This document shows positions 23,105-47,990 of a stretch of DNA of 64,000 nt, piece by piece. Source of the stretch: an uncultured Erysipelotrichaceae bacterium. Its GTDB lineage: Bacteria; Bacillota_I; Bacilli_A; RFN20; CAG-826. Location of the stretch: the NCBI GenBank assembly GCA_947166565.1, contig CAMVEL010000002.1, positions 62,001-126,000 of the forward strand, in the 5' to 3' direction. The translations under genes and the position numbers were made by a program. Numbering within the stretch: the stretch's first letter is position 1; the number at the start of each line of letters is the position of its first letter. Below the pieces are notes generated by a model that worked only from the letters and a program-made list of their open reading frames with translations, made no database searches and was not told the DNA's origin.

Positions 23105-24454
23105 ATGCCAGAAAAGAAGAAAGCCGCCAAAAAAGCCAAAGAAGCCGTCGAAAAGGATGATCTCCTCGACGCGGACATCCCCTTTGATGACGAAGACGAA
23201 GACCTCGTTTCTTTGGATACCTTGAAGAAACAGCTTCTCGAGGAAGCGAAAAAGCGTGGTTACCTCAACCTCGATGACGTCTTCGACGCCACCAGAAGGC
23301 TCGACCTCTCCGAAGATGATTTGGAAGGGATGATCGAGTATTTCCGCGCTTCCGGCATCCAAATCGAATCCGATGACGATGAATCCGAAGAAGAACCTGA
23401 AGGCCCAAGCGCCGAGGATCTCGATTCGGAGATGGACCTCGAATCGGAAATGGACGCAGACGAAGACGAGATGGTCGAAGAGGATTCGACCCTCGATGAC
23501 GAAGAGAAGGAAGTGGCCGCGATCAGCGATTTATCAAAGATCTCCATCGGCGAGGTCAAGGTCAACGACTCCGTTAAGATGTATCTTAAGGAAATTGGCA
23601 AAGTCGAGCTCCTTTCCGCTAAGGAGGAGACCGAACTCGCCAAGGCGATCGTCGCCGGCAACGCCCCAGGGGCGACCGAATGGGAAATCGAGGAAGGGCA
23701 AAGGGCCAAAGACCACCTAATCAACGCTAACCTCCGCCTTGTCATCGCCATTGCAAAGCATTATGTCGGTAGGGGCATGCATTTCCTTGACCTTATCCAA
23801 GAAGGCAACATGGGCTTGATAAAGGCCGTCGAGAAATTCGATTACACCAAAGGTTTCAAATTCTCGACCTACGCCACCTGGTGGATCCGTCAGGCCATCA
23901 CCCGCGCAATCGCCGACCAGGCTAGGACCATCCGCATCCCCGTCCATATGGTCGAGACCATCAACAAGATGACCCGCGTCCAACGCCAACTCGTCCAAGA
24001 GCTTGGCCGCGACCCAACGCCAGAGGAAATCTCCGATAAAATGGACGGTTCCCTCTCCCCTGAACGCATCAGGGAGATTCAACGTATCGCTCTTGAACCG
24101 GTTTCTCTAGAAACCCCGATCGGCGAGGAAGACGATTCCCATCTCGGCGACTTCCTTGAGGACAAGGAAGCCCAAAGCCCCGAGGAATACACGACCAAAT
24201 CCTTGCTTAAGGACGAGCTATACGAAATCATGAAGGACCTCACCGACCGTGAGGAAAGGGTCCTCCGCCTCCGTTATGGGCTTGACGATAACCGCCCCCG
24301 CACCCTCGAGGAGGTCGGACGCGAATTCGGGGTCACCCGCGAACGTATCCGTCAAATCGAGGCCAAAGCCATCAGGAAGCTCCGTCATCCGACGAGGGCC
24401 AAGAGGCTTGGCGATTATCGCGACTCCTTCTCAGACGGCTCCGGAAGGCGTTAA
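23105..24454 (+). CDS. rpoD: Primary sigma factor
   Basis: This is the housekeeping sigma-70 (SigA/RpoD). After an acidic N-terminal part of about 150 residues come region 1.2 ([16 protein letters not shown]), region 2 ([19 protein letters not shown], then [13 protein letters not shown]), region 3 and region 4 with [18 protein letters not shown]. The 449-residue length exceeds Bacillus SigA (about 371) mainly because of the Glu/Asp-rich stretch at about 85-140. The ribosome-binding site GGGAG lies about 10 bases before the ATG. Confidence 0.97.
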
Positions 24455-24483
24455 AATAGGATAACGAACAAGGAGGAAGCAAA

Positions 24484-25164
24484 ATGGCAACAAACAAGCG
24501 CAACGTCCATAAGGCTTCCTCCTTTTCTTCTACCTTGAACGAGCAGGAATTATTCGCCCTCATCGAAAAAGGCCGCGTCTCCGATTCGCTTGAGGATAAG
24601 GCCAAAGGGCAAGAAGCGGCCTATCTCGTCGCTTCCTCCTATTTCCCTTACGCGGAAGCAACCGTCATCAAGGAATTCTCCGATGTCTGCACCCCGGGAA
24701 CCACCGAGGATTTGTTCCAAGAGGCCAAAATCGCTCTTCTTGAGGCCGCGAATTCCTTCGATTACCGCAAAGGGGCCATTTTCTCGACCTACGCCTACCC
24801 TTGGATCAGGAATTCCTGCAACAATTATTTGAAGAAGCTCCGCCGTAGCCTCAATCGCCCAGACCCTGGCTTTGATAACGGGAATTTCGTCTCCCTAAAT
24901 CAGGATGTCGAGGAAATGGAAGAGGAGAACGAGGAGAACCAAACCGCGAGGTTACAGGCCATCCAGGCGGTTTTGCCTAAACTCACGAGCAAGCAAAAAG
25001 ACGCGATCGGCTATCGTTATGGATTATTCGGAAAGCCCCAGCTCAAAACCTTCGCGGAGATTGGCAACGCGATGGGGATAAGCGACGAAGCCGCGAGGAT
25101 GCATTATCAAGTCGGCATTGGAAAACTGTCTACATTATTAAAGAAAAATAACGATGAATACTAA
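24484..25164 (+). CDS. Second sigma-70-family factor next to rpoD
   Basis: The 226-residue protein has sigma region 2 (DLFQEAKIALLEAANSFDY, FSTYAYPWIRNSCNN) and region 4 (LTSKQKDAIGYRYGLFG, then a helix-turn-helix around TFAEIGNAMGISDEAARMHY). Region 1 and most of region 3 are absent; the linker (about 130-155) is acidic. It resembles RpoD more than an ECF factor in region 2, but the -10-reading residues differ, so it should read other promoters. It begins 30 bases after rpoD with AGGAGG and overlaps trmK by 11 bases. Bacillus has no gene here. Confidence 0.82.
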   Translation: MATNKRNVHKASSFSSTLNEQELFALIEKGRVSDSLEDKAKGQEAAYLVASSYFPYAEATVIKEFSDVCTPGTTEDLFQEAKIALLEAANSFDYRKGAIFSTYAYPWIRNSCNNYLKKLRRSLNRPDPGFDNGNFVSLNQDVEEMEEENEENQTARLQAIQAVLPKLTSKQKDAIGYRYGLFGKPQLKTFAEIGNAMGISDEAARMHYQVGIGKLSTLLKKNNDEY

Positions 25165-25825
25165 TCTTTCCCTTCGTTTAGAGGCGATTGCCAAGATGGT
25201 CCCACCAAGTCGCGGCCTTGCCGATATCGGCTCCGACCATTGTCTTTTGCCCCTATCTTTGGCAAATAGGGAGGATATCGCCTTCCTACAGGCAATCGAC
25301 AATAAACAAGGGCCGTATCAGAATATGGTTAAGGCGGTTAAGGAAGCCCATATGGAGAATCGGATTTCCCTTTCCTTATCCAACGGGCTCGATTGCCTTG
25401 ACGAAAAAGTCGATACCATCGTCCTCGCGGGGATGGGGGGCAAACTTATCGCCGATATCTTGACTCGGGGCAAACGCAACCTCACCCATATCGAATATAT
25501 CCTTCTTGACGCCCATCGCGACCTCCGTTATGTTCGCGAATTCGTCTTGGGGTTAGGTTATGCCATAATCGATGAGAACCTCATCAAGGAGAAGGACCTT
25601 TTCTATTCGATCATCCTCTTCAAAAAGGGGGAAACGCCCATATTGAATGAGGAGGACCTCCTCTTTGGGCCCTTTATCAGAAGGAAAAGAGGGAAGGATT
25701 ATATCGATTTTCTCCTCCAAAACAAAAAGAGGATCGCGAAGATCCTCCAAGGTGATATTTCCCTCAATAACCGTCGTTATTACGATTATCTGCTTAACGC
25801 GATAAACAAGGAATTGTCCGCTTAA
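25154..25825 (+). CDS. trmK: tRNA (adenine-22-N1)-methyltransferase
   Basis: TrmK methylates A22 in tRNA. The Rossmann SAM site ADIGSDHCLLPL is at residues 23-34, with LAGMGGKLI as the second family motif near 92-100. Length 223 is normal and the position after the sigma gene matches Bacillus yqfN. The nif3-type gene that usually follows is missing. The stop overlaps that of convergent ispH within four bases (TTAA at 25822-25825), with no terminator between. Confidence 0.93.
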   Translation: MNTNLSLRLEAIAKMVPPSRGLADIGSDHCLLPLSLANREDIAFLQAIDNKQGPYQNMVKAVKEAHMENRISLSLSNGLDCLDEKVDTIVLAGMGGKLIADILTRGKRNLTHIEYILLDAHRDLRYVREFVLGLGYAIIDENLIKEKDLFYSIILFKKGETPILNEEDLLFGPFIRRKRGKDYIDFLLQNKKRIAKILQGDISLNNRRYYDYLLNAINKELSA

Positions 25826-35888: not shown

Positions 35889-36003
35889 AATAGATTTCCT
35901 TTAGATTCCCTTTCCAATCGCCAACATTTTAATCCGAAGAGGTTTCTTTTCCAACAAACTTCGCGCTATAATATGTCAGTCTTTGACTGAAGCAACTATT
36001 TTA

Positions 36004-38007
36004 ATGATGGAAGAAGAGAATAAAGCAAATATTATCGACGATGCCGCCGAGGAACGCAGACGCGCCAAGGCCGAGGAATCATATACATCGAAGGACATCG
36101 AGGTTTTAAGCGAGCTCGAAGGTATCCGCAAAAGGCCCGGTATGTATATCGGATCGACCAATTCCAGCGGTCTTCACCACCTTATTTGGGAAATCGTCGC
36201 GAACTCCGCCGACGAAGCGATCAATGGCTTCGGTTCCAATATCGAGGTCACTTTGCATAAAGACGGTTCCTGCTCCGTCGAAGACGAAGGACGCGGAATC
36301 CCCGTCGATATCCATAAGGGGACCGGCATGCCTGCCGTCCAAGTCCTCTTCACCCGTCTCCACGCGGGCGGTAAATTCTCCGATAAGAACTACACGACCT
36401 CCGCTGGTTTGCATGGCGTAGGCGCGACGGCGACCACCGCCTTAAGCGAATATACCGACGTCACCATCTGCCGCGGCGGGAAGATGTACCATATCCGTTT
36501 CGGACAAGGCGGAAAACTCGAGGTTCCCTTAGAGGAACTCGGTCCAACAAGAAAACATGGGACCACCGTCAGGTTCAAGCCGGATCCCACGGTTTTCTCG
36601 ACCGTCGACTTCAAATGGGATTCGGTCTATAACCACCTTCAGGAGAAGGCCTTCCTCATCAGGGGGGTCCATTTCTTCCTCAAGGACGAAAGGAACAAAC
36701 TCCAACACGAATTCTACGCGGAGAACGGCCTCCACGATTATATCGATACCCTCTGCGCCTCAAAGGAGAGGCTAGGGGATTCCATCTATTTCGACGACAA
36801 CACCTCGCCGATTAAGATCGAGCTCGCCCTCCAGTGGTGCCAGAAGGACTATAACTCCGATAATATCTTCTCTTACGCGAACTCCGTCCATACCTTCGGG
36901 GGCGGTACCCACGTGACCGGTCTAAAAGCCGGCATCACCAAGGCCGTCAACGACTGGGCCATCAAGAACGAGGTCATCAAGGAGAAGGACAAATTGGGAA
37001 GGGAGGATATCTTCGAAGGCCTTACCGCCATCATCCATGTCCGCATCCCCCAATCCAACAACGAATTCGAAGGCCAGACCAAGGAAATCCTCGGCCTTCA
37101 GGAAGCGGAATCCGCGGTTAGGGAATTCACGGTCAAGAACCTCACCTATTACCTATCCGAACACAAGGATTTCGCGATCGACTTGATCCATAAATGCCAA
37201 TCCTCCAAAGCCGTGCGCGATGCGGCGAGGAAGGCCAAGGAAGCCGCAAGAAGCGGCAAAACCCAGAAGAAGGCCGATTTCGTCATCTCCGATAAGCTCG
37301 CCGCGGCCCAAAGCAAGGATTACGCGGAAAACGAGCTCTTCATCGTCGAGGGCGATTCCGCGGGCGGCTCCGCGAAATCCGGCCGTGACCGCCTCCATCA
37401 GGCGATCTTGCCCCTTCGTGGAAAACCGCTCAACACCAACGACACCACGATGGAGAAGATGAGGGCCAACGCCGAATTCTCCACGATCATCCAGACCATC
37501 GGAGCTGGGGTCGGGGCCGATTTCGACGCGAGCGAAAGCAAATACGGCAAGATCATCATCATGACCGATGCCGATACCGACGGAGCCCATATCCAGATCC
37601 TTTTGCTCACTTTCTTCTATAATTACATGAAACCCCTTATCACCAACGGGATGGTCTATATCGCCTGCCCGCCCCTATACCGCGTCTATAAGAAAAGCGA
37701 TCCCAAGAACAAATTCATCTACGCTTGGGACGACGCGGATTTGGAGGAAGCCAAAGAGAAAATCGGGCCAGGGTATGGCATCAACCGTTATAAAGGTTTG
37801 GGCGAGATGAACGCCGACCAACTCGCCGCGACCACGATGAACAAAGCGACCCGCAAACTCCTCCGCGTGAGGATCGATGACCCGATCGTCGTCGAGAAGC
37901 GCATCTCCGTCCTTATGGGCAACGACGCCTCCTTACGCAAACAGTGGATCGAGGAGAACGTCAAATTCGATGAGGTCGACTCCTTCATGAAGGAGGTCAA
38001 ACTCTGA
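36004..38007 (+). CDS. parE: DNA topoisomerase IV subunit B
   Basis: ParE is the ATPase subunit of topoisomerase IV, which decatenates sister chromosomes. It has the GHKL ATP site (ANSADEAINGF, DEGRGIPVD, GLHGVGA), the transducer, and a TOPRIM domain with VEGDSAGGSAKSGRD and MTDADTDGAHI. It is called ParE rather than GyrB because the partner gene carries ParC signatures. A TATAAT (35967-35972) lies upstream; the start could be ATG 36004, ATG 36007 or TTG 35983, and none has a good ribosome-binding site. The stop overlaps the parC ATG (TGATG). Its position 6 kb from dif fits a decatenation role at the terminus. Confidence 0.93.
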   Translation: MMEEENKANIIDDAAEERRRAKAEESYTSKDIEVLSELEGIRKRPGMYIGSTNSSGLHHLIWEIVANSADEAINGFGSNIEVTLHKDGSCSVEDEGRGIPVDIHKGTGMPAVQVLFTRLHAGGKFSDKNYTTSAGLHGVGATATTALSEYTDVTICRGGKMYHIRFGQGGKLEVPLEELGPTRKHGTTVRFKPDPTVFSTVDFKWDSVYNHLQEKAFLIRGVHFFLKDERNKLQHEFYAENGLHDYIDTLCASKERLGDSIYFDDNTSPIKIELALQWCQKDYNSDNIFSYANSVHTFGGGTHVTGLKAGITKAVNDWAIKNEVIKEKDKLGREDIFEGLTAIIHVRIPQSNNEFEGQTKEILGLQEAESAVREFTVKNLTYYLSEHKDFAIDLIHKCQSSKAVRDAARKAKEAARSGKTQKKADFVISDKLAAAQSKDYAENELFIVEGDSAGGSAKSGRDRLHQAILPLRGKPLNTNDTTMEKMRANAEFSTIIQTIGAGVGADFDASESKYGKIIIMTDADTDGAHIQILLLTFFYNYMKPLITNGMVYIACPPLYRVYKKSDPKNKFIYAWDDADLEEAKEKIGPGYGINRYKGLGEMNADQLAATTMNKATRKLLRVRIDDPIVVEKRISVLMGNDASLRKQWIEENVKFDEVDSFMKEVKL

Positions 38008-40679
38008 TGGCTAAGAAAAAAGTAGTGGAAAAGCCCATCATCGTCGAGAACATCGTCCATTCGGCGATGGATGAATTGATGGGCGAAAGATTCGATATCT
38101 ACGCCAAAGACGTCATCCAAGACCGCGCGATCCCCGATGCTAGGGACGGCCTTAAGCCCGTCCAACGCCGCATTATCTACGCGATGTGGAACACCAACAA
38201 CACCATCGATAAACCGACGAAGAAATGCGCGCATATCGTCGGTGAGGTCATGGGCAAATACCATCCCCATGGCGACTCCTCGATCTATGAAGCCCTCGTC
38301 AGGATGTCCCAGCCCTGGAATCTTCGCGCGCCCTTAATCGATTTCCAAGGCAACAACGGCTCAATGGATGGCGATGGCCCCGCCGCTTATCGTTATACCG
38401 AAGCCAGGTTATCCGCTCTTTCCAATGAACTTATCCGCGACTTGGAGAAGGATACGGTCCCCATGGGCCTGACTTTCGATGATGCGAATTATGAGCCTCT
38501 CGTCTTGCCTGCCCGTTTCCCGAACATGTTCGTCAACGGGGCCAAAGGCATCGCGGTTGGTATGGCGACGGAGATCCCTCCCCATAATCTAGGCGAGATC
38601 ACCCGCGCGGTCATCCACCGCATCGAGCATCCTTCCTGCCCCATCGAATCCTTGATGAAATTCGTGGCGGGCCCAGACTTCCCAACAGGAGGAGTCATCT
38701 ATAATTCCCAGGGCCTAAGCGATATCTACCTTACCGGCAAGGGCAAGATCGAGATGCAATGCAAATACCACATCGAGGAAAACGATGGGGTCAACTCAAT
38801 CATCATCACCGAAATCCCATATCAAGTCGTCAAGAGCAGCCTTGTTTTCTCAATCGACAAGATCCGTCATGACAAGGATATCGATGGCATCGACGAAGTC
38901 AGGGACGAAACCGATAAGAATGGGGTCCGCATCGCGATTGATTTGAAACCTAATTTCAAACCCGAGGCGATCATCGCCTATTTGATGGGCAAGACCGATA
39001 TGCGCACCTCCTATACGGCCAATATGGTCGCGATCGTCGATGGGCGTCCGGCCACCTTGAATTTGCTTTCCTATTGCGATACCTATATCGCCCATCAAAG
39101 GGAAGTCATCACCAGAAGAAGCATCTTCCTTAGGAAAAAGGATATCGCGAGACTCGAAATCGTCGACGGCCTCATCAAAGCCAATTCCGTCATCGACGAA
39201 GTCGTCCATATCATCCGCGCCTCCGCGGATAAGGCTGATGCGAGGAAAAACCTCGAGGCCCGTTTCGGTTTCACCGAGAATCAAAGCGAAGCCATCGTCA
39301 TGATGCCCTTATACAAGCTCTCCCATACCGATATCGTCTCATTGGAAGAGGAAGCGAAGGCCCTCCGCGATGATATCGCCTATCTTGATGGCATCCTCAA
39401 ATCGCAGGAAGCCCTCGATAAGGTCATCGTCGCCGATTTGCGCGAGATCATGAAGAAATACGATTCGCCAAGGCGCACCGCCATCGAGGAGGAGAACAAG
39501 AACCTCCGCGAAGTCAAGAGGGCGGAGCTCATCGCAAGCGAGGAGGTCATGGTCGCCGTTAGCCGCGATGGCTACGTCAAGCGTTCCTCTTTGGCTTCCT
39601 ATAAAGGCTCAGGAGGCCATAATGGCGTGCTTCCTGGCTGTAAGGAAAAGGACACCCTCATCTTCATCGGGCCTGCCCAAACTACCGACCATATGCTGAT
39701 GTTTACCTCCAAGGGCAATTATCTATATGTCCCTGTCCATATGCTTAAATCCAATAAATGGAACGATGAAGGGGTTCACGTCAATATCGCGATTAATCTT
39801 GAGGCTGACGATAAGATCATCAAAGCCTTCGCGGTGGAATCTTTCCGTGAAGGAATCAATGTCGTGATCGCCTCCAAAAATGGGCAGATCAAGCGTACGA
39901 AGCTTTCCGCCTTCCCCGTCACGAGGTTTACCCGTCCGGTCAAGGCCATTAAGCTTTTCGCGGATGACGAATTAGCCGATGTCGTCTTCACTTCGGGGAA
40001 TGACAACCTCCTCGTTATCTCCTCTAGCGGAGGCAAAGACGAAACGGTCCTCGCCTCTTTCTATAACGAGAACGAGATCAGTATCACCGGCACCTCAAGT
40101 TCAGGCATGAAGGCCGCTTCCTTCAAAGGGAAGCCGGTCGCCGCCCTTATCGCCTTCAATCCGGAAGAGCGCGGCAAGGTCATGTTGGTCACCGACCATG
40201 GCGTCACCCGCGTATTCGGCATCAACAACATCGAAGAAGGGACAAGAACCGGGAAGGCCACGATCCTCTATCGTTATTTCAAGAAAGAGGAGAACGGCCT
40301 CGTCTATGCCCAAAAGGCCCAGAACGTCGAGGTTCCAAAGACCTTCAAAGTCACTCTCGACGATGGCTCTTATGCCGAAGTCGTCTATGAGGATCTTCTC
40401 CTTACCCCAATGGATAAATACGCTAAGAGCGAGAAGGAACTCCCTAAGGGAAGGACCATCGCTTCCGTCTTTAGGGGCGATTCCATGAGGATCGATGATT
40501 CCTTCAAGACCTTCGAATCTCCAAAAGGCGAGGGCGATGAAGGCGAGGAGATGCCAGTCCCAACCGAATCTTCGAGCACCGAATCCAATCAGCTTCTTGA
40601 AGGTAATGAAGAAGGGGATAATGAAGGCCCCGTCGAACTCTTCGAGCAGATGTCGATATTCGGGGACGACGATTTCTAA
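38007..40679 (+). CDS. parC: DNA topoisomerase IV subunit A
   Basis: ParC cuts and rejoins DNA. The breakage-reunion domain has GKYHPHGDSSIYEALVRMSQ at about 83-102 and catalytic Tyr130 in AAYRYTEARLS. The DFQGNNGSMDGDG segment is the ParC form (GyrA has GNFGS). Quinolone-target positions are Ser91 and Glu95 (sensitive-type residues). A beta-propeller C-terminal domain follows and ends in a long acidic tail (about 830-890). It is translationally coupled to parE; a terminator follows at 40683. Confidence 0.93.
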   Translation: MAKKKVVEKPIIVENIVHSAMDELMGERFDIYAKDVIQDRAIPDARDGLKPVQRRIIYAMWNTNNTIDKPTKKCAHIVGEVMGKYHPHGDSSIYEALVRMSQPWNLRAPLIDFQGNNGSMDGDGPAAYRYTEARLSALSNELIRDLEKDTVPMGLTFDDANYEPLVLPARFPNMFVNGAKGIAVGMATEIPPHNLGEITRAVIHRIEHPSCPIESLMKFVAGPDFPTGGVIYNSQGLSDIYLTGKGKIEMQCKYHIEENDGVNSIIITEIPYQVVKSSLVFSIDKIRHDKDIDGIDEVRDETDKNGVRIAIDLKPNFKPEAIIAYLMGKTDMRTSYTANMVAIVDGRPATLNLLSYCDTYIAHQREVITRRSIFLRKKDIARLEIVDGLIKANSVIDEVVHIIRASADKADARKNLEARFGFTENQSEAIVMMPLYKLSHTDIVSLEEEAKALRDDIAYLDGILKSQEALDKVIVADLREIMKKYDSPRRTAIEEENKNLREVKRAELIASEEVMVAVSRDGYVKRSSLASYKGSGGHNGVLPGCKEKDTLIFIGPAQTTDHMLMFTSKGNYLYVPVHMLKSNKWNDEGVHVNIAINLEADDKIIKAFAVESFREGINVVIASKNGQIKRTKLSAFPVTRFTRPVKAIKLFADDELADVVFTSGNDNLLVISSSGGKDETVLASFYNENEISITGTSSSGMKAASFKGKPVAALIAFNPEERGKVMLVTDHGVTRVFGINNIEEGTRTGKATILYRYFKKEENGLVYAQKAQNVEVPKTFKVTLDDGSYAEVVYEDLLLTPMDKYAKSEKELPKGRTIASVFRGDSMRIDDSFKTFESPKGEGDEGEEMPVPTESSSTESNQLLEGNEEGDNEGPVELFEQMSIFGDDDF

Positions 40680-43697: not shown

Positions 43698-44063
43698 ATG
43701 TACGATCAGGACATCGAAAAAGAACTAAAAGTCGCCCTAGATTGCCTAGGCGAGCACAAAGTCAGCGACGTCTCTTACCTAGACGTTGCCGAATATACCC
43801 CATTCGCTTCCTATTACGTTTTGGCGACATGTATGAACCTAAGGCAGCTAGAAGCGATGGCCGGGCATCTGGAGGAAGCCTTCGAAAAGAACAAAATTGA
43901 GGTTTTCGCCAAGGAAGGCATCCCTGATTCCGGCTGGGTGATCGTTCAAGGCGGCGACATCATCATTCATTTATTCTTAGACGTCAACCGTAAAGAGATT
44001 GATCTCGAAGGATTGATAGTTGATATGGCCAAGCGTTCCGAGAAAAATCGTGCCCGTAAATAG
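43698..44063 (+). CDS. rsfS: Ribosomal silencing factor RsfS
   Basis: RsfS binds L14 and blocks subunit joining when nutrients are low. The 121-residue protein shows the conserved VSDVSYLDVAEYTPFASYYV, EAMAGHLEEA, GIPDSGWVIVQGGDIIIHLF and DVNRKEIDLEG segments. It closes the yqeG block and is the last plus-strand gene before the strand switch at the dif site. Confidence 0.95.
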   Translation: MYDQDIEKELKVALDCLGEHKVSDVSYLDVAEYTPFASYYVLATCMNLRQLEAMAGHLEEAFEKNKIEVFAKEGIPDSGWVIVQGGDIIIHLFLDVNRKEIDLEGLIVDMAKRSEKNRARK

Positions 44064-44110: not shown

Positions 44111-44163
44111 TTGGAGGAATTCCGCAAAAACATAAACAGTGGAATTCCTCCAATTTCTTTTTC
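44111..44163 (+). terminator. Long-stem terminator after rsfS
   Basis: TTGGAGGAATTCC (44111-44123) pairs perfectly with GGAATTCCTCCAA (44141-44153) over 13 bp, followed by TTTCTTTTTC. It lies eight bases before the dif site. Confidence 0.8.
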
Positions 44164-44170
44164 AAAACCT

Positions 44171-44198
44171 ACTTCGCATAATGTCCATTATGTTAATC
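44171..44198 (+). other. dif: dif chromosome-dimer resolution site
   Basis: Two 11-base arms flank a 6-base centre: ACTTCGCATAA (44171-44181), TGTCCA (44182-44187), TTATGTTAATC (44188-44198). The inner arms CATAATG and CATTATG are inverted repeats. From memory the E. coli site has arms GGTGCGCATAA and TTATGTTAAAT around TGTATA, so the match is strong in both arms. It sits exactly where gene direction switches and 1.6 kb from a XerD-type recombinase. Confidence 0.9.
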
Positions 44199-44570: not shown

Positions 44571-45779
44571 TTATTCGAAGATTTCCATTAACGGTTCGCC
44601 AAGCATCGAAGCGTCCTTATTGAGGAAGAAATTATGCAATGCCGTCGCGCCAATGCAGGCAAACGTAGCGTTTTCTTCGAGCTTACGACCTTTATTGAGG
44701 GATGGAGAATACATCAATAGAGGGACTTTCTCCCTGGTATGGTCGGTTCCTCTGAATGTTGGATCATTCCCGTGATCGGCAGTGACCATCAAAAGGTCGT
44801 TATCGTCCATTTTCTCGATGAATTCGGCTAATCTGACGTCTAAAGCCTCTAAACAACGGGCATATCCAACGGGATTACGGCGATGTCCGTATTCGGAATC
44901 GAATTCGACGAGGTTGACAAAACACAATCCGGTGTAGTCCTCGCCTAGCTGACGAATCGCTTCATCCATACCTTCTTCGTTTGTGGCGGTATGGATGGTC
45001 CTAGTCACTCCTACTCCATTGAAGATATCGTTGATTTTGCCGATCGCGGAGACTTCGTAGCCAGCGTTTTTGAGGATATCAAGCGCGGTTACGCCAGTTG
45101 GGGAGACCGTATAATCGTGTCTATCGGCCCCAACGCGGTGGAAATCGTTCTTATTCGTCCCTAGATATGGCCTAGCGATGACCCTACCGACGAAATAACG
45201 GGGATCCATGCAGAGTTCCCTTGCGATCTCGCAGCAGCGATATAGCTCTTGTAAGCCGGTAACTTCTTCATGGGCGGCGATTTGGAGAACGGAATCGCTG
45301 GAGGTATAGACGATTAGCGAATTGTCCCTCATCTGCTCCTCACCTAACTGCTTGAGGATCTCCGTTCCGCTTGCGGCGACGTTGCCGATAATCTTATGTC
45401 CGGTCCTTCTTTCGAGTTCATCGATTAAATCCTGGGGGAAGCCGGTGTCGGTGAAGGTTTGAAACGGCTTGGTGGTGTTGATGCCCATCATCTCCCAGTG
45501 GCCCGTCATCGTGTCTTTCCCGCGGCTTGTTTCGCGTAAGGCCAGGTTATAGGCGTGAGGATGGTCGTTATTCTCCTTTACGCCCATGATTTCGTCGAGA
45601 TTTCCTAAACCCATCGCCTCCATCACGGGGGTTTTAAGCCCTCCGACGGATTCCGCGGCATGGGCAAAGGTATTGGACCCGCAATCGCCGAAATCCGCGG
45701 CATCCGGCTCCTCGCCGATGCCCGCGCTATCCGCGACGATCACGAATATGCGTTTGAATTTCCGATATTCTTTTTTCAT
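44571..45779 (-). CDS. deoB: Phosphopentomutase
   Basis: DeoB interconverts (deoxy)ribose 1- and 5-phosphate. The 402-residue alkaline-phosphatase-like enzyme has VADSAGIGEEPDAADFGD at the N-terminus, CGSNTFAH, DTMTGHWE (nucleophile Thr region), YTSSDSVLQIAAHEE and a C-terminal TADHGNDPTFRGTDHTRE. GAAAGGAAAG precedes the ATG. It supplies substrate to deoC (14855). It is the first minus-strand gene right of dif and ends at the terminator 44513. Confidence 0.97.
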   Translation of the reverse strand: MKKEYRKFKRIFVIVADSAGIGEEPDAADFGDCGSNTFAHAAESVGGLKTPVMEAMGLGNLDEIMGVKENNDHPHAYNLALRETSRGKDTMTGHWEMMGINTTKPFQTFTDTGFPQDLIDELERRTGHKIIGNVAASGTEILKQLGEEQMRDNSLIVYTSSDSVLQIAAHEEVTGLQELYRCCEIARELCMDPRYFVGRVIARPYLGTNKNDFHRVGADRHDYTVSPTGVTALDILKNAGYEVSAIGKINDIFNGVGVTRTIHTATNEEGMDEAIRQLGEDYTGLCFVNLVEFDSEYGHRRNPVGYARCLEALDVRLAEFIEKMDDNDLLMVTADHGNDPTFRGTDHTREKVPLLMYSPSLNKGRKLEENATFACIGATALHNFFLNKDASMLGEPLMEIFE

Positions 45780-45844: not shown

Positions 45845-46732
45845 TTAGGCTTCGTCACGAAGATAGGCCTCGTAGGCGCTCTTGATGCGCTTACTTGATA
45901 CATGCGTGTATATTTCGGTGGTCTCAAGATGGGAATGGCCCAAAAGGGCGCTGACGATGCGCAAACTCGCCCCGTTTTCAAGTAGATGGGTCGCAAAGCA
46001 ATGACGCAAGGTGTGGGGGCTAATCGGCTTATCGATGCCCACTTCTAGGGCGTATTTCTTGATTTGATTATAAAAATAGATTCGGGATAGGGCCTTTCCA
46101 TAACGGTTAAGGAAAAGAGTCGAGGTATTCGCGCCTATATTATTGATGCGGAAATGCTCGATGTAATCCTTCAAACAATCTAGGGCATATTCACCGATTG
46201 GGACCACTCTTTCCTTCTTTCCTTTGCCGGAAGCGACCTTCACGACCCTTTCGACGAAGGATATATCGTAGGTATTGAGGGCCAAAAGCTCAGAGACGCG
46301 CAATCCACTCGCGTACATGCATTCGAGCATCGCCTTATCCCTCGCGCCATATTCATCCGTGGCTTTTGGGGCGTTAAGCAAATCCTCGACTTCCTCGACG
46401 CTAAGGACGTTAGGCAGGTGTTTCCCGAGCTTTGGACGGTCAATCGTCGGGAATTCCCCCTGGATCAGCCCTTCATCTTCCAAGAAACGGAAGAACATAT
46501 AAAGGGCGGATAGCCTTCTTGCAACGGTGCGCGGAGAAAGGAAACGCTCGGTCTCCGCGATCGCGAAATCCTCGATGTCGGTCAAAAGGATGTCCTCAAG
46601 GTCCTTCTTCTCGGGGAAAGCCTGCAGGAACATCATGATATCCTCACGGTATGAGGAAATCGTCGCCTCGCTTAGGCCTTTCTCGCTGCGGAGATGCTCG
46701 ACGTATTCTTCGAAAGCCTCGAGGATGCTCAT
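45845..46732 (-). CDS. xerD: Tyrosine recombinase of the XerC/XerD family
   Basis: This 295-residue recombinase should resolve chromosome dimers at dif. The N-terminal SAM-like domain ends near 95; the catalytic domain has R145 (ASGLRVSELL), K around 170, H240-x2-R243 (SPHTLRHCFATHL), H266 (LLGHSHLE) and Tyr275 (TTEIYTHVS). It resembles XerD slightly more than XerC, but the choice is not firm, and only one Xer gene is in the window. It overlaps dinB by four bases and lies 1.6 kb from the dif site. Confidence 0.92.
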   Translation of the reverse strand: MSILEAFEEYVEHLRSEKGLSEATISSYREDIMMFLQAFPEKKDLEDILLTDIEDFAIAETERFLSPRTVARRLSALYMFFRFLEDEGLIQGEFPTIDRPKLGKHLPNVLSVEEVEDLLNAPKATDEYGARDKAMLECMYASGLRVSELLALNTYDISFVERVVKVASGKGKKERVVPIGEYALDCLKDYIEHFRINNIGANTSTLFLNRYGKALSRIYFYNQIKKYALEVGIDKPISPHTLRHCFATHLLENGASLRIVSALLGHSHLETTEIYTHVSSKRIKSAYEAYLRDEA

Positions 46733-47916
46733 TTTTTCTTGGCCTCACTTGCCCTAATGAGGACGTCTTTATCGAAATGGCGGTTCATCTCGTTGATGAA
46801 GAGCCTCGTCTTATCCATTTCCTCGAATTCCTGGTAATTCCAAAAGCTCATCTGCACGTCGCGACGCGTCTTATCCTCCAAACGGGACAAGGAGACCCCG
46901 ACCAGGCGGATTTCCATGACCCCATCGAAATTATCCTTATATAAGCGTTCCGCAAGGGCGTAGATCGCATCGAAGGAATCGGTTGGGGAAGGGAAACTAT
47001 CCGCGCGGGAATGAAGATGGAAGGAGCCTTCGGTATCCTTGACGGTCAAAGTCAAGGTGTTCCCGACCTTATGGGCTTCCTTCATCCTGCTCGCGACTTC
47101 CATGCAAAGCATCTTCAAGGTGCCCTCTATTTCGTAGAATTCGCTGCAATCGTGGCTTAACGTGGAGGAATTGCCGATGGATTTAGGGTCCCATGGCTCC
47201 AAATCGAGGGTATTCTCCCCGCCACCTAGAACCCATTCCTTCGCGGTGAAGAAGAATTTGCCGAGGAAGCGCATCAAAATCGGGTCATCGACTTTGGCTT
47301 TCTCCGCGAAATCCCCAATCGTATTTATGCCCAGCTCCCTAAGTTTGGGGCTGCTTTTCTTGCCGATTCCCCAAAACGATTCAATGGGCAATCCATAAAG
47401 GATGCTCGGGATATCCTTTTTCCTAATTATCGTTAGGCCCATCGGCTTTTTGAGGTCGCTAGCCATCTTGGCGAGCCATTTGGTCGGGGCGATGCCGATC
47501 GAAGCCGTCAGGCCGGTTCTTTTATATAGGTCATTTTGGAAATGCTGGAAATAGGCGATGGGATCCTTGACGTTAACGATGGCCTCGGAGAAATCCGCGT
47601 AGCATTCATCGATTGAGGCCACTTCGATATCCTTGACGTATTCCTTCACGATCGCGAAAAAGGAATTCGACATCATCTTGTAATAGGAGAAATCGGGTTC
47701 GACCACGATGAGGTTTTTGCATAATTTGTCCGCTTGAAAGGTCGGCATGCCCGAATGGATGCCATATTCCCTGGCCTTATATGAGCAAGTGGAGACGATT
47801 CCCCCTCTTCCGCGATGGCCGATGACAAGAGGCTTATCCTTCAAGGAAGGGTTACGCAAAACCTCCGCGTTGGCGAAGAAGGCATTGAGGTCAATATGCG
47901 CGATAACCTTTCCCAT
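46729..47916 (-). CDS. dinB: DNA polymerase IV
   Basis: DinB is a Y-family polymerase for bypass of damaged bases. The catalytic residues are in HIDLNAFFANAE and SIDECYADFSE; TASIGIAPTKWLAKMASDLKKP and the little-finger domain follow. Length 395 is typical. It is co-transcribed with xerD. An inverted repeat lies in the promoter region at 47928-47946. No LexA-type box of the Bacillus form is seen. Confidence 0.95.
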   Translation of the reverse strand: MGKVIAHIDLNAFFANAEVLRNPSLKDKPLVIGHRGRGGIVSTCSYKAREYGIHSGMPTFQADKLCKNLIVVEPDFSYYKMMSNSFFAIVKEYVKDIEVASIDECYADFSEAIVNVKDPIAYFQHFQNDLYKRTGLTASIGIAPTKWLAKMASDLKKPMGLTIIRKKDIPSILYGLPIESFWGIGKKSSPKLRELGINTIGDFAEKAKVDDPILMRFLGKFFFTAKEWVLGGGENTLDLEPWDPKSIGNSSTLSHDCSEFYEIEGTLKMLCMEVASRMKEAHKVGNTLTLTVKDTEGSFHLHSRADSFPSPTDSFDAIYALAERLYKDNFDGVMEIRLVGVSLSRLEDKTRRDVQMSFWNYQEFEEMDKTRLFINEMNRHFDKDVLIRASEAKKK

Positions 47917-47927
47917 ACATGGATATT

Positions 47928-47946
47928 ATCCTATTAAAATTAGGAT
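47928..47946 (-). promoter_or_regulatory. Possible dinB operator
   Basis: ATCCTA-TTAAAAT-TAGGAT is a perfect 6-bp inverted repeat overlapping a -10-like GATAAT (47925-47930 on the minus strand), 12 bases before the dinB ATG. Confidence 0.35.
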
Positions 47947-47986
47947 AAAAAAAGGATGGACGAGAGGTTTTGTCTCTTTCCATCCA
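47946..47986 (-). terminator. dxs terminator
   Basis: On the minus strand GGATGGA (47985-47979) and TCCATCC (47960-47954) pair, and TTTTTTTATCC follows. Confidence 0.8.
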
Positions 47987-47990
47987 CTTC

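Follow-up and report, generated by a model that had tools for sequence, protein, structure and literature searches.

Does the point at which gene orientation switches in this stretch of DNA mark the terminus of chromosome replication, and is the 28-bp sequence located there the dif site at which XerC and XerD resolve chromosome dimers? The window analysed (the whole 64-kb stretch) comprises positions 62001-126000 of contig C2 of a draft genome (G000, hereafter the host genome; 1,849,506 bases in 45 contigs, 92% complete). Its species is an uncultured gut or rumen member of the Bacilli; among the matches listed in a scan with its XerD, which come mainly from distant taxa, the nearest named ones are metagenome bins, e.g. 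the uncultured Erysipelotrichaceae bin RUG10878 and a Bacilli bin from horse faeces.

The 28-bp site and its conservation

The site (44171-44198, plus strand) reads ACTTCGCATAA-TGTCCA-TTATGTTAATC and consists of a XerC-type arm (44171-44181), a centre (44182-44187) and a XerD-type arm (44188-44198), with the two 11-bp arms of partial dyad symmetry and the 6-bp centre that are characteristic of dif. Compared with Escherichia coli dif, as printed in PMC2731167, 21 of 28 bases are identical (8/11, 4/6 and 9/11 for the left arm, centre and right arm, respectively), and the 9-mer core of the right arm, TTATGTTAA (44188-44196, plus strand), is the same in both sites. At up to three mismatches, the 28-mer has a single match in the 64-kb window, none in 100 shuffles, and a single copy in the 1.85-Mb host genome. 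An earlier reading of the window from its sequence only had proposed these two 11-base arms around TGTCCA as dif, had called for a search for further genomic copies and had named several copies or a better dif elsewhere as refuting; the host genome contains neither.

A search pattern that left the centre and the arm ends free and allowed up to two mismatches gave one match each in 27 of the 31 genus genomes, whereas the reversed pattern used as a control gave one match in all 31; of the 27 matches, L060 (genome G019) appears to have arisen by chance. Both the draft host genome and this genus scan indicate one copy per chromosome. In an ungapped stack of the genus sites, positions 1-26 show near-full information and the columns outside are at background except for weak A/T tracts, conservation thus being restricted to a core of 26-28 bp. 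Furthermore, other families of the order were sampled, and most of their genomes contain a match with no or one mismatch; a draw of 139 genomes from the class gave such matches in 86. In one genome of family f18 (L266, G071:C1:1181635-1181713), a pair of dif-like sites lies within 80 bases, one on each strand.

On its left, dif is adjoined by rsfS (43698-44063, plus strand; TIGR00090), the last gene of the rightward-reading arm, and, just before the site, by a terminator-like inverted repeat with a T-rich run (44111-44164, plus strand), which was read from the sequence and was not listed by the terminator scan, its loop being too long for that scan. Compared with shuffled sequences, the left flanks of dif sites in congeners have a stronger tendency to fold (mean z -2.5). 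In addition, A- and T-tracts with a phase of about 10 bp flank dif, which is significant in the genus and order alignments, and they occupy fixed places at about -16, +31, +40 and +61 (loci L001, L038-L063 and L118-L144). The left T-tract coincides at least in part with the T-run in the adjoining gene's terminator, and no folding was found for the right-hand A/T tracts beside dif.

Xer recombinases and other partner proteins

The host genome encodes both XerC and XerD. The tyrosine recombinase gene xerD (45845-46732, minus strand) is located 1.65 kb from dif and reads toward it, close to the 1.6 kb given in the sequence-only reading. Its product scores 317 bits against TIGR02225 (cut-off 329.6) and lies above the cut-off of the tyrosine recombinase model NF001399. 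Residues R145, K170, H240, R243, H266 and Y275 of XerD, which we take to be the catalytic set of tyrosine recombinases, are invariant in 16 sequences. The XerC-type paralogue is encoded on another contig (G000:C17), and each of the two proteins matches its expected model best, both slightly below the equivalog cut-offs. An FtsK/SpoIIIE-type translocase is represented by an FtsK_gamma domain, over its cut-off, encoded on the same contig as dif. Topoisomerase IV, which had been placed 3.5-8 kb away, is encoded by parE (35983-38007) and parC (38007-40679), both on the plus strand and 3.5-8.2 kb from dif. A search for polar octamers of the KOPS/SRS kind identified several moderately skewed candidates, the strongest being CGATGGGG at 3.8-fold, and the Bacillus subtilis-type octamer GAGAAGGG shows clear skew only in the congener G010.

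With the XerCD/dif systems of B. subtilis (CodV/RipX, Bsdif) and E. coli, the host shares a 28-bp site in which a 6-bp centre separates two 11-bp arms, the presence of just one such site, at the terminus, a pair of tyrosine recombinases and an FtsK-type translocase. It differs from these canonical systems in the proximity of xerD to dif; ripX of B. subtilis is located about 0.5 Mb from dif. With regard to epsilon-proteobacteria, canonical systems have been described as having their two recombinase genes scattered (PMC2731167).

Location at the replication terminus

On the 158-kb contig C2, 82% of the genes left of dif are on the plus strand and 94% of those right of it on the minus strand, both sets pointing toward dif, and within the window every major open reading frame right of dif is on the minus strand, which bears out the sharp strand switch noticed at the 28-mer. 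Cumulative gene orientation on C2 peaks between the two genes flanking dif; the peak coincides with dif in the host genome and in G010, and lies within 2.5 kb of dif in the congener G029. The orientation minimum, i.e. the point of divergence, is found at 24,815 on host contig C7, inside dnaA (24,141-25,457).

As a check, a maximum or minimum of cumulative GC skew had been predicted at about 44.2 kb. The raw cumulative skew does have an extremum near this position, but it is a minimum at about 41-43 kb and not a maximum, and in most bacteria such a minimum denotes the origin, so that the strand switch and the skew could also be read as marking an origin of replication. However, third-position GC skew is about -0.3 in genes of both strands (C > G), and raw skew reaches its minimum at dif because it follows gene direction. 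The raw-skew test is confounded by this coding-strand C bias, and raw GC skew misleads in genomes in which such a bias is strong. Skew was therefore corrected by using four-fold sites and removing the coding component, and the difference between leading and lagging strands was assessed by permutation. The corrected cumulative skew has its maximum at 271,354 in G010, 0.3 kb from dif (271,620), and at 595,025 in G029, 10.6 kb from dif (605,597), and leading-strand genes are G-richer at four-fold sites in both genomes (+0.115 and +0.136, respectively; permutation p=0.0002). With these maxima at or near dif, and with dnaA sitting on a different contig at the very point of gene divergence, the probability that the switch represents an origin is negligible. 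On the host contig itself (G000:C2, L064-L071), a replication component of the four-fold skew is absent (leading-lagging difference +0.002, p=0.49), so that skew here speaks neither for nor against a terminus, and the terminus call for the host genome therefore rests on gene orientation and on its relatives. That the window spans the replication terminus, as the earlier reading had held, is supported by gene convergence at dif and divergence at dnaA in the host, and by corrected skew in the two congeners.

Xer-dependent mobile elements also carry dif-like sites (PMC5357621), and the 28-mer might be the attachment site of such an IMEX-like element or else a chance palindrome. Either is very improbable given the single copy in each of the 27 genus genomes, its placement, in the congeners read, with rsfS on one side and the deoB-xerD genes on the other, and the housekeeping genes on both sides, with nothing element-like among the immediate neighbours. 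In view of its single copy, conservation, location and partner proteins, the 28-mer is almost certainly the chromosomal dif at the replication terminus and would serve as the site of XerCD dimer resolution, and this assignment gives a large uncultured genus a defined terminus.

The best-supported account of how the site functions is that XerCD act at dif in the ordinary resolution of chromosome dimers. By analogy with E. coli and B. subtilis, from which the recombination reaction, the pairing of each arm with its recombinase and the part played by the translocase are inferred, homologous recombination would fuse sister chromosomes into a dimer needing resolution, and an FtsK/SpoIIIE-type translocase would pair the two dif copies at the septum. 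XerC would bind the left arm and XerD the right arm, and the recombinases would exchange strands across the 6-bp centre to yield two monomers.

Linkage of xerD to dif and lone XerD arms

In the window, deoB (phosphopentomutase; 44571-45779, minus strand) lies between dif and xerD, and dinB (DNA polymerase IV family; 46729-47916, minus strand) is the first gene of a presumed dinB-xerD-deoB operon. XerD and dif positions were combined in the 139 class genomes, 56 of which carry the two on the same contig. Ten families (f1, f3, f10, f12, f14, f15, f16, f17, f20 and f23) supply 45 of these 56 genomes in which the distance between xerD and dif is 0.7-9.9 kb, and in all 45 xerD reads toward dif, with dif on the opposite strand. 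Five families (f18, f19, f24, f26 and f28) are unlinked, with distances of 37-236 kb. By-eye comparison also indicated the linkage in other families of the window's own order. Linkage of a recombinase gene to dif has been described for the single-recombinase systems XerS/difSL of streptococci and lactococci and XerH/difH of epsilon-proteobacteria (PMC5357621, PMC2731167). These systems have one recombinase and an atypical site, whereas in the host a canonical 28-bp site is combined with two recombinases, and the XerS model gives 117 bits on the host xerD product (cut-off 267). The locus was accordingly not assigned to the XerS/XerH modules, with which it has linkage alone in common. Linkage in a two-recombinase system goes beyond the textbook, and an earlier report for XerCD in Bacilli may exist.

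The xerD-dif linkage is a robust pattern, presumably either ancestral or maintained by selection in a large part of the class. That it reflects only inherited synteny, with no function, is a serious alternative that falls just short of an even chance: xerD and deoB adjoin in most linked loci and families, and the genomes are of common ancestry. However, the genes between dif and xerD differ in number and kind from family to family, as do those on the far side, while linkage and orientation persist, and linkage is also kept in f15, in which no deoB was found between dif and xerD, a gene that is sometimes missing.

The 9-mer core of the XerD arm recurs without a XerC arm upstream of the dinB-xerD-deoB operon in congeners. 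It is rare, with 2 to 12 copies per genome in 18 genus genomes, and a lone copy is located in the dxs-dinB intergenic region at 17 of 23 genus loci around xerD; together with G015 the rate is 18 of 24, and this rate is the evidence, since the aligned sites were picked by exact match and their invariance is partly due to selection. The lone copy is found in constant orientation roughly 15-30 bp before dinB and about 1.2 kb 5' of xerD (L005-L028), and G016 contains only two copies genome-wide, one in dif and one upstream of dinB. Lone copies upstream of dinB are also present in G034 and G036 and at the loci L148, L149, L173 and L220, extending to some other genera. The dinB-upstream copy is absent in the window's genome (intergenic region 47917-47990, minus strand) and in its near relatives G025 and G021. 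Furthermore, three to four additional copies, some of them inside xerD or dxs, are located between dif and dxs in G009, G010, G029, G015 and G014 (L291, L104-L105, L092, L289 and L290) and are rare elsewhere in those genomes. The Poisson probability of this clustering is about 1e-8 to 1e-10 per genome, for genomes that are related: xerD DNA of G009, G010 and G029 is 82-85% identical, so these are not independent, and that of G014 shares about 64% identity with theirs. At class-level loci XerD half-sites are not enriched (8 observed versus 14.9 expected), and the half-site pattern is therefore a family-level matter.

With moderate probability, the lone arm of the relatives may be a XerD operator or a site comparable to XDS. 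In B. subtilis, XerD-dependent unloading of SMC takes place at XDS sites around the terminus (Karaboja 2021, as cited in PMC10945525 and PMC12322038). The XerD-arm sequences without a XerC arm near the terminus of some congeners may be comparable to XDS as described there. The arrangement here differs in that the cluster occurs in one congener clade only and that, apart from dif itself, the window's genome has no copy of the 9-mer within 12 kb of dif. We tentatively propose, with somewhat less than even confidence, that in this family XerD may bind the lone arm at its own dinB-xerD-deoB promoter, that xerD, operator and dif would form a linked self-regulating terminus module, and that the extra arms in one clade could serve as SMC-unloading sites, the window's genome being without the promoter copy. 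Alternatively, the lone 9-mer, which reads TTAACATAA on the coding strand, could be the -35 box (TTAACA) of the operon promoter and no XerD site, an explanation that is less likely than not. It would account for the -10-like hexamer at a spacing of 16-18 nt in 13 of 19 cases, but not for the 6 of 19 that have no -10 at this spacing, nor for the retention of all nine bases at a constant place in an otherwise diverged intergenic region. The rarity of the 9-mer genome-wide, its identity to the dif arm and its further copies between dif and dxs in the five genomes of one clade likewise argue against a simple -35 box. Both the linkage and the XerD arm upstream of the xerD operon in relatives raise the questions of why the recombinase gene stays near its site and whether XerD regulates itself. 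An inverted repeat, TTATCCTA-N7-TAGGATAA, is found before dinB in the window's genome (47925-47947) and in G025 (L003), at the place where other congeners carry the lone XerD arm.
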